This document shows positions 15,496 through 19,656 of a DNA stretch of 64,000 bases, in pieces. The position numbers and the translations under genes were made by a program. Under the pieces are notes generated by a model. That model saw only the letters and a program-made list of their open reading frames with translations, was not told where the DNA came from and ran no database searches. Within the stretch, counting starts at the first letter, position 1. The number at the start of each line of letters is the position of its first letter. The stretch comes from Phlebopus portentosus (taxonomy: Eukaryota; Basidiomycota; Agaricomycetes; Boletales; Boletinellaceae), in contig JAYXKI010000021.1 of the NCBI GenBank assembly GCA_037892935.1, forward strand, positions 108,007 through 172,006, in the 5' to 3' direction.

Positions 15496-17108
<1,613 letters not shown>

Positions 17109-17522
17109 GGCTGCGAGGGATGGAAAAGTGGAAGAAGAGAAAAGTTTGTTTGTTTGTTTGTTTTTGTAAGAGAAGTGTGCGTCGTGCGTCCCTGCGAGGT
17201 CGATCACAGAAAGAGAAAATTTTGGTCTTCCAAATCGGGGTATTTGCTATATTGGGATCATAGGCTTCTCCTGCTCTGTGCTCAAACAAATCATTGTATT
17301 TTCTTCTACTTCTTGGTTATACTAGTAAGTTTTCAAGCCGACGAGACTATAGGGAAAAGAGCCATGCTGGAACCTTTAATCTATGCCTTCCACCTCTAAG
17401 ATTCCTTAAAATATCTAGATTCCCTTGAGCTCATTACTACGACTATTTAAATATCTACGATGGTAATAAATACTCGTAAATCACTCTCAAGCTGTGAAAT
17501 AAATCCCTTGTCAGCATACTTG

Positions 17523-17748
17523 CCACGTCCTAGGCTTGCCAGCCAGATAGTAGCTACCGGAGGGCAGTGTTATATTTCGATCTCCGACTGATTACATCAT
17601 TTATTCACAGCCTTAGCCTATGAGGACTGCCTACGTGTCCATTTGACTCTGCCACCTACCGCCACGTCTACACCCACCTCCTGACTCGTCCCGTCCCTTT
17701 TAGTCTCTTCACTCTCGTTTACGCTCTTTCTTCCACGTACGACCACGT
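17523..17748 (+). promoter_or_regulatory. Cluster of ACGT-core sites upstream of the bZIP gene
   Basis: In the 672-bp divergent promoter between the methyltransferase and bZIP genes there are five ACGT cores within about 230 bp: CCACGTC near 17523, TACGTGT near 17632, CCACGTC near 17662, CCACGTA near 17733 and CCACGTC near 17743. ACGT cores are bZIP binding sites, and CCACG(T) is the half-site preferred by metazoan XBP1. Repetition just ahead of a HAC1-like gene suggests autoregulation. This is inference from sequence only. Confidence 0.45.
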
Positions 17749-17780
17749 CCCCTTCGAAGTTAACGACAAACACACCAGTC

Positions 17781-18980
17781 ATGTCAGCACATACCGTTAA
17801 CCCCTCAGCGCTCTCATTGCCCTCGCCGCAGTCTGATGAGGCCAGCTCTCCACACCCGTCGCATTCGGACACCGCGTCGGCCCCACCGCGAAAGCGACAG
17901 AGGACCGTCATGTCAGCAGAGGAGCGCAAAGAAGCCCGCGCACACCGAAGTAGGTGGATCTATAGTTGTATATCCAACGAGTTGCTTACTGAGATATGAT
18001 TTAGACCGCATCGCTGCTCAGAACTCCCGTGACAGACGGAAAGCTCAGTTCGCAACTCTGGAGCGTCGTGTAGCTGAGCTTGAAGAGGAGAATAAGCAGC
18101 TGCGTGCTGGAATGACATTATCGGACCTCCAGTATGCAGATGCAAGACGTGCACAGGAGCAGCAGCGTGAGAAGGAGCGGGAACGAGAGAACGCAGAGCT
18201 CAAGGAACGAATAAAGTCTCTTGAGAAAGGATGGGAGGCCGTAATGAAGGTTCTCGCCGCACAGGGTCTCCCTACTCCTGTTCCTACCGCTCAATCGACC
18301 CCAAAGTCTGAACCATCTCCACAATCCGACACTAACAATACCACGACCACCTTTCCTGTCTTGGTTCCATCAACACCTGTATTCCCTATCACACCCTCCC
18401 CATCCATCTCCGGTGCGAGCATCAGTCTTGACGCAGATGAGTCCGAGTCCACTTGCCACCTAGCACGGGTGGTGAGCACCGCGGCAATCCCCCCCGCGAT
18501 GCCCCTGCAGCGGGTGGACTCGACACGACGACTCTCCATTCTGCGTTCCCGTCTCCAGCCGCTTCTGTCCCTGAGGCGGACTTCGCACCGACTCCCCTCT
18601 CCTATGAACTCCCGTCGCCTGCGCCAGCACACGAAGCAGATGTGGACGCTTGGATCCGGGAAATCTTCTCGGGTTCCCCTCTCAACGCGTCGACGCCTTT
18701 GCCAGAGGTTAATACTTCTGGAGAAGGGCGGGACGTTCCATACACCGCGCCCACCCCCTCCGCGGCGCCGTTGATCGGGTCGACGGAGATCACGACTGAA
18801 TGGGAAAACGGAGTGGAGATGCAGAGACTTTTGGACCTGTTTACGACGGTCCAGTCCGATGGGCCCGTCGTCGCTGCGAACGACCAAGCGATGGACGCAA
18901 GCACAGCTTTGGGACTCGAGCTGTGCGGAGGGTGGAATGTCGACCTGGTGCCGACATCATCTGGTGTTGGTGTATTCTGA
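17781..18980 (+). CDS. hac1: HAC1/XBP1-like bZIP factor of the unfolded protein response
   Basis: Exon 1 is 17781-17949. A 55-nt spliceosomal intron interrupts the basic region, and exon 2 starts at 18005. The bZIP has a bipartite basic region with NRIAAQNSRDRRKAQ (57-71) and leucines at 75, 82 and 89, followed by a coiled coil. Without further splicing the frame runs to a stop at 18772-18774 (312 residues) with an Arg-rich, poorly protein-like tail. From 18453 to 18980 another frame (+2) is open and looks like a real acidic activation domain, with VDAWIREIFSG and MQRLLDLFTTV. Joining the two needs removal of 3n+2 bases, as in HAC1/XBP1 mRNAs cut by IRE1. Candidate hairpins are listed separately. 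With the 71-nt model the active protein is 357 residues. The bZIP type is certain; the HAC1 role is strongly inferred from the frame switch. Confidence 0.88.
18437..18507 (+). other. Candidate non-spliceosomal (IRE1) intron in the bZIP mRNA
   Basis: The 3' site is clear. The 7-base loop CUGCAGC (18505-18511) matches the IRE1 consensus CNG|NNGN, and a stem closes it (18500-18504 with 18512-18516, three G-C plus two G.U pairs). The cut falls after 18507 and the downstream frame is then correct. Three phase-compatible 5' sites exist. CAG|AUGA at 18436/18437 (71-nt intron) lies in an 8-base loop on a 6-bp stem with one bulge (18427-18432 with 18441-18447) and fits the consensus. CCG|AGUC at 18445/18446 (62 nt) has a 5-bp stem but no G at the sixth loop position. 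CCG|CGGC at 18481/18482 (26 nt) fits the consensus but lacks a visible stem. I prefer the first. The borders do not fit spliceosomal GT..AG rules. Confidence 0.6.
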
Positions 18981-19656
18981 AGAATGTTCGGCGACTTTGT
19001 AATTAAAAGTTCCCCCTCCCACATACCTCTCGGATTTCGTTCTCTTTTTTTTATGTTCTCTCTCTACATCTGGTTTTTCTAGTATCTTATTGTATCGTCG
19101 GACGTGATCTCCTCTCTCATCGACTCATAGATCTTCCTTTCCACTCCTCTGTTGTTGCCGCCTTTTTCTGACGACTTCGTTGCTTCTGTTACTTTCTTCT
19201 TTCTTTACTGCTTGGTGCAGCTCCTGGATTGCTTTGTCTGTGTTTCTCTCCCTTCGGGTTGATGAGGTGCATAGACGGGTAGCTCAGTGAGCGCTCTAGC
19301 GGTTTAGTTTGTAGTTAGCATACAGTAGACGATCGTTTGTCGTTATGATTAGTCGGGTCAATGGAGTTCTGGTTTGGAGGTAATCCATCCATCATGCCTG
19401 ATTTATGGAGTGACTGTACGAATATCAATTTGCGAGATTTTCATTTTTTTTAACGAGCGACCCTGTCGCTCGGTACAGACGAGATATAACTTTAGAAATA
19501 GAGACAAATAAGTAGCTCAAGCTCGAGACCTTCAGAATACAGAGCAAGATAGTTATCAGAATGCCGTCGAATGTCGAGAAGTATAACAAAATGAACTTGC
19601 CAGAGAAAAGGATGACTGATCCATGTTACTTTGCCAGCTCTTCAGGTTGACACGTT
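18981..19656. other. Convergent 3' flanks of bZIP and CHZ1 genes
   Basis: Pyrimidine-rich then AT-rich spacer between two convergent stop codons. A stretch near 19277-19310 resembles the 5' half of a tRNA (A-box-like), but no B box or acceptor stem follows. No gene was called. Confidence 0.45.

Follow-up and report, generated by a model that had tools for sequence, protein, structure and literature searches.

A bZIP transcription factor gene lies on the plus strand of the 64-kb stretch of DNA analysed here (the window), which forms part of contig C21 in a genome of 38.4 Mb and 23 contigs. Its first exon runs from the ATG at 17781 to 17949 and is followed by a conventional 55-nt GT-AG intron in the basic region (17950..18004, GTAGGT..TTTAG), removal of which gives AHRNRIAAQ, a stretch that relatives read alike. 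The bZIP domain (17919..18108, residues 47-91), split by this intron, matched both PF00170 (E = 5e-11) and PF07716 (E = 6e-10) above their cut-offs, and the window protein thus has the bZIP domain that marks HAC1/XBP1 factors. Its best protein match, among the best 120 of 467, came from Sanghuangporus baumii (97% identity), which assigns the gene to a Sanghuangporus-like wood-decay fungus, and UniRef already calls many of the family proteins among the matches listed X-box-binding protein 1. The divergent neighbour on the minus strand (16275-16898) reads, by its motifs, like a protein arginine methyltransferase. Upstream of the ATG, four CCACGT copies and a single CTACGTGTCC are clustered at 17523..17748 (plus strand) and may represent ER-stress elements: CCACGT was counted 4 times in 17480-17780 compared to 0.09 expected from the window rate, and CTACGTGTCC is one base off UPRE2 as quoted in one report (PMC4836707). 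Judged from these motifs, the cluster would fit autoregulation.

As the initial annotation had described, the bZIP frame continues (here from 18005) into an Arg-rich tail and stops at 18772-18774; this form has 312 aa, and its tail is basic (24 K/R vs 2 D/E after HLA). That annotation had also reported an acidic frame in another phase at 18453-18980; the phase (frame 0) and the end at 18980 hold, while the frame opens at 18441 rather than 18453, so the two frames overlap from 18441 to 18774. As it had further stated, and as the frame phases confirm, the two can be joined only by losing 3n+2 bases. One extra C in the C run at ~18490-18496 would also connect the frames, and we therefore weighed the possibility that the assembly had slipped, or the gene was broken, by one base lost there. 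Against this, a second copy of the gene on contig C5 (G000:C5:624385-625587, 99% identical), which differs in the coding part by one in-frame 3-bp indel and three substitutions, is identical over 18317-18812, that is, across the frame switch, and 74 of 150 relatives likewise read through in the unspliced frame with both of the conserved blocks described below. A slip, which the second haplotype and the orthologues largely refute, is the least probable of the explanations considered and was rejected. Contig C21 itself stops where the window stops (172006); together with the 99% identical copy on C5, this makes C21 a possible contig of the alternative haplotype.

Between the two frames lie two hairpins bounding a 44-nt segment (18464..18507, plus strand) that we infer to be an unconventional intron from its phase, its HLA|AGG product and the same join in relatives. 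The 5' hairpin, CUUGCCACC[UAG|CACG]GGUGGUGAG (18452..18476), has a 9-bp stem and a 7-nt loop, with a putative cut after G18463 that is in phase with one after G18507, and no other [CT]NGCNCG loop with at least 7 bp of stem occurs on either strand of the window; this hairpin was absent from the list in the initial annotation. The 3' hairpin, UGCCC[CUG|CAGC]GGGUG (18500..18516), carries the 7-nt CUGCAGC loop on a 5-bp stem and offers the phase-correct 3' cut after 18507 that had been proposed earlier; five CNGCNGN loops on stems of at least 5 bp occur in the window, both strands. Loss of the 44 nt would join exon 1 and its continuation to a second exon (18508..18980) and yield the peptide ...STCHLA|AGGLDTTT... 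in a 366-aa protein, whose acidic tail (3 K/R, 21 D/E after HLA) is matched by the spliced-form relatives. Four cut registers give this one product, with the borders GC..CT, CA..TG, AC..GC and CG..CA, none of them GT-AG or GC-AG; the exact register was set at G|C following the Ire1 rule. The window therefore contains, by sequence, a 3n+2-nt non-GT-AG segment downstream of the bZIP domain whose loss switches the C-terminal frame. An Rfam search of 17700-19500 gave two chance-level matches, neither of them HAC1/XBP1.

To relatives of the gene we turned through protein searches (the best 120 of 467 and the best 120 of 496 matches, with 4 more matches to part of P0064), which gave 150 proteins, 151 with the window, and whose codons were inferred from the proteins, not from DNA. 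The frame-0 acidic motif was missing from 84 of the 151, and 79 of these were aligned over the tail, five having no block 1 in range (P0002, P0003, P0083, P0129 and P0123); P0004, P0006, P0043 and P0102, among the 79 rows, are not plain unspliced forms. Two near-invariant blocks emerged, one at each hairpin: TRHLARV (18451-18471) with T in 78/79, R69/C8/L2, H74/Q3/Y2, L73/S3/P3, A in 79, R in 79 and V71/M4/L3 (one gap), and LQRV (18505-18516) with L58/Q17/R3 and Q75/P2/R1 (one gap each), R in 78/79 and V in 77/78. Entropy was 0-0.64 bit over the first block with the next codon and 0.1-1.0 bit over the second. Elsewhere it was mostly 1.3-3.5 bits, with one further sharp minimum at 18643 (Trp, 0.50 bit), for which the constraint of the frame-0 acidic motif plausibly accounts. 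The residues flanking the 3' cut, counted in the 79-row alignment and hence free of the residue demand used below, were L, Q or R before it (78/78) and Q, P or R after it (78/78), with one gap each; they are chemically unlike yet all writable as CNG, as a CNG|CNGN loop demands. In the first block, the codon that holds position 6 of the 5' loop is Arg in 79/79 aligned tails, and since Arg codons never start with G, the consensus G is excluded there in relatives. Searches with the two-block pattern in genome contigs and viral contigs gave no match, and the 5'-hairpin pattern gave one match in the viral collection (L013), presumed to be chance.

Covariation was assessed in 81 of the 151 proteins, selected with a pattern that demands L, Q, P or R at both codons around the 3' cut; a smaller set (71 of 123 proteins) demanded this only after the cut. 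The facing codons of the 5' stem were R/A in 71 rows, C/V in 5, C/A in 3 and L/E in 2 for the first pair, and H/V in 74, Q/L in 3, H/M in 2 and Y/M in 2 for the second. Under some choice of codons, all three positions of both pairs could pair in 81/81 rows, compared to at most 79 for either pair in 2000 shuffles, which ignore relatedness, the rare pair types coming from few lineages (L/E and Y/M from the same two proteins, P0073 and P0087). The 3' stem was compatible in 73/81 rows, equal to the shuffles, and gains no covariation support; both hairpins are present, conserved and in phase, with covariation backing the 5' stem and not the 3' stem. The inferred intron length over the 81 rows was 35 nt in 1, 38 in 5, 41 in 6, 44 in 27, 47 in 38, 50 in 3 and 53 in 1.

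The orthologue alignment, suggested earlier as a check and done here with proteins, accordingly backs the 3' site and places the 5' site first proposed in a variable stretch. That site, with a CAG|AUGA loop at 18434-18440, a cut after 18436 and an intron of 71 nt, is in phase and its CAGAUGA matches CNG|NNGN; however, no pair directly closes the 7-nt loop, 18426-18448 folds at only -3.1 kcal/mol, and the excision would delete the STCHLA block kept by the spliced-form relatives, which read another join. Conservation, stem covariation and the spliced-form proteins instead place the cut after 18463, for an intron of 44 nt. We consider the 71-nt version very unlikely and rejected it, together with the 62- and 26-nt alternatives offered beside it, neither of which would give HLA|AGG.

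The spliced form itself can be read in relatives. Frame 0 was reached by 71 of them, and an HLA|AGG-type join (H or Q, L or P, then AAGG or AAGA) was found in 11 of the 150: Cristinia sonorae, Trametes maxima, T. elegans, Gelatoporia subvermispora, Mycena floridula, M. rosella, M. vitilis and four proteins from short contigs (P0064, 1192 nt; P0101, 1557; P0123, 1284; P0130, 1398). These last four read straight through where the conventional intron would lie (AHRNRIAAQ), and since that intron is absent too they are most simply explained as cDNA; P0101 reads QLA|AGG, in line with the unspliced QLARL lineage (P0061, P0085, P0097). Programmed ribosomal frameshifting aided by the hairpins, with no RNA excised, would be helped by the overlap of the frames at 18441-18774 and by the structured RNA there, but the short-contig proteins lack the intron residues altogether and the amino acids flanking the 3' cut match an Ire1 loop, so this too is very improbable and was rejected.

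A conventional intron is the more serious competitor. The initial annotation had stated that no GT..AG borders join the frames; in fact many GT..AG pairs would do so, and the statement is wrong because one of them, GT18413..AG18510 (98 nt), would yield the SIS|AGG annotated in P0002, the S. baumii protein and nearest relative among the matches listed. Other joins than HLA|AGG are annotated in 60 of the 71 frame-0-reaching relatives as well (47 downstream of HLAR, 10 upstream with PAAGG and 3 otherwise). Nevertheless, the GT18413 donor lacks conservation, with Gly at 18412 present in 11/79 rows, the annotated joins disagree between close relatives (P0017 of Trametes maxima vs P0024 of T. meyenii), and the two conserved blocks and the stem covariation would be left unexplained. 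By codon reasoning, moreover, the HLA|AGG of the 11 relatives could not arise by GT-AG or GC-AG splicing, given an HLAR template. The other annotated joins, inconsistent as they are from one close relative to the next and with no regard for the conserved blocks, were taken as gene-prediction artefacts, and a GT-AG intron was rejected as improbable, though less so than the other rivals. Collectively, the orthologue blocks, the 5'-stem covariation and the spliced-form relatives lend good support to the HAC1/XBP1-type frame switch in a basidiomycete bZIP gene that had been proposed, with the 44-nt segment as its intron.

Folding predictions add a possible third element. The predicted fold of 18440-18530 reached -40.3 kcal/mol (z = -2.28, with 6 of 200 shuffles as good), while that of the 161 nt from 18400 to 18560 was unexceptional (z = -1.16, 30 of 200 shuffles). 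It comprises the 5' hairpin, with its loop narrowed by a U-G pair, and a basal stem that would join the exons through GAGUCCAC (18445..18452, exon 1) and its perfect complement GUGGACUC (18514..18521, exon 2). The exon-2 arm overlaps the 3' hairpin, and with computed energies of -12.6 kcal/mol for both hairpins vs -18.6 kcal/mol for the 5' hairpin plus basal stem, the minimum-energy fold adopts the basal stem in preference to the 3' hairpin. The basal stem was compatible in 52/81 rows (shuffle mean 43.5; 3 of 2000 reached 52), the codon pairs P/G and T/V pairing and S/V, P/D and T/D not, and its outer part was weaker (51 vs 48.3 in shuffles; 106 of 2000), which makes the covariation only suggestive. 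A zipper-like RNA structure is described as holding the XBP1 exons (PMC6037481), and by analogy the basal stem may act in the same way.

The genome encodes both enzymes that such splicing would need, an Ire1 with kinase and RNase (locus L010, G000:C8:1177000-1185000) and a tRNA ligase Trl1 with ligase, kinase and phosphodiesterase domains. In S. cerevisiae numbering, fixed by N1036-K1042, this Ire1 has D992 (FLQDASDR aligned to FLLKVSDR of yeast Ire1, 3fbv) and K1059, the latter read across the exon join RNK|KHHYQDL. It thereby shows the S. pombe-like interface, D/E at 992 with K/R at 1059, a pattern that, by the prediction of one study, the vast majority of species share (PMC8104961). The same study gives the S. 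cerevisiae-type substrate as a 7-nt loop CNG|(C/A)NGN at both sites, to which the 3' loop CUG|CAGC conforms and from which the 5' loop UAG|CACG, taken strictly, departs at positions 1 and 6 (PMC8104961). Where its text treats a yeast Ire1 double mutant of relaxed specificity, G|C sufficed in a BIP1-derived loop, but HAC1-derived loops still required CNG|NNGN (PMC8104961), so the D992/K1059 interface may help to explain the off-consensus 5' loop without settling the matter. An Ire1 of this S. pombe-like, RIDD-capable type may degrade other mRNAs too. The sequence CACCTNGCNCGGGTG has a third genome match at G000:C1:445370-445384 (L005), a candidate other Ire1 target at a frequency about chance level (~1 expected by a simple base-frequency estimate).

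We therefore favour, with a probability of about 0.88, a HAC1/XBP1-type transcription factor gene of the unfolded protein response, in which Ire1 cuts after 18463 and 18507 and Trl1 rejoins the exons with the loss of 44 nt. The spliceosome would take out only the 55-nt intron, leaving an mRNA that encodes the basic-tailed 312-aa bZIP protein. ER stress would then lead Ire1 to cut both hairpin loops, after G18463 and G18507, and to free the 44 nt, and the exons, able to pair via their complementary arms, would be rejoined by Trl1, shifting the frame at HLA|AGG to give the 366-aa factor with the acidic tail. The gene, both frames, both hairpins with their conservation, HLA|AGG in relatives and the Ire1 and Trl1 genes are read from sequence, and the 5'-stem covariation from the proteins of relatives; from these we infer Ire1 cutting, Trl1 joining, stress dependence, a role for the basal stem and activity of the two protein forms. 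Against the 44-nt model stand the differing joins of P0002 and of the 60/71 frame-0 relatives, the 5' loop outside CNG|(C/A)NGN, where even the relaxed yeast mutant requires CNG|NNGN in HAC1-derived loops, the 3' stem lacking covariation, the basal stem with covariation that is only partial, the predicted preference for that stem over the 3' hairpin and the unexceptional 161-nt fold. Beyond this gene, we lean, with distinctly less assurance, towards an asymmetric Ire1 intron in Agaricomycetes at large, combining a 3' CNG|CNGN with a class-specific 5' YNG|CNCG, a codon-coevolving stem, an exon-exon stem and a D992/K1059 Ire1 as the cutter; if true, an entire class of fungi would have conserved a natural substrate for splicing that departs from the yeast consensus.

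Mushroom-forming fungi are heavy enzyme secretors, and placing these sites would correct many gene models, enable a simple RT-PCR assay of ER stress in mushrooms and test how far Ire1 recognition departs from CNG|CNGN. Our literature search found no paper that places HAC1/XBP1 splice sites in mushroom-forming fungi, nor one with the 44-nt length (35-53 nt in 81 rows) or the conserved off-consensus 5' loop. Work by Hooks and Griffiths-Jones from 2011 may reportedly cover basidiomycetes. One family member, P0037, with its join annotated differently, is recorded for Trametes cinnabarina, which we take to be the same fungus as Pycnoporus cinnabarinus. According to its genome paper, P. cinnabarinus has no clear HAC1 orthologue (PMC4101180), and the Hxl1 paper names Coprinopsis and Laccaria homologues (PMC3154848).

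Among the known systems, cib1 of Ustilago maydis makes the same kind of switch, with a 65-nt intron according to the initial annotation. Like cib1, described as a HAC1-like bZIP factor that regulates the unfolded protein response in a basidiomycete (PMC4836707), the window gene would belong to a mechanism already known in this phylum from HXL1 of Cryptococcus neoformans, a bZIP gene that carries a conventional intron of 55 nt together with an IRE1-dependent 56-nt unconventional intron bordered by CAG at both ends (PMC3154848). The window gene resembles HXL1, so far as that paper describes it, in its 55-nt conventional intron, its putative short unconventional intron downstream, the changed C-terminus that splicing would give and in needing no strong sequence similarity to HAC1/XBP1, and is set apart by its 44 nt and its UAG|C 5' border (PMC3154848). 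With metazoan XBP1 and yeast HAC1 it would share two hairpin loops cut after G, and its CUG|CAGC is the loop of the XBP1 3' site substrate as given in the reports consulted (PMC6037481, PMC8104961). Unlike the yeast HAC1 intron, the 44-nt intron has no perfect complement of more than 5 nt in the 301 nt that precede the ATG, and unlike both XBP1 and HAC1, the 5' loop here reads YNG|CNCG.
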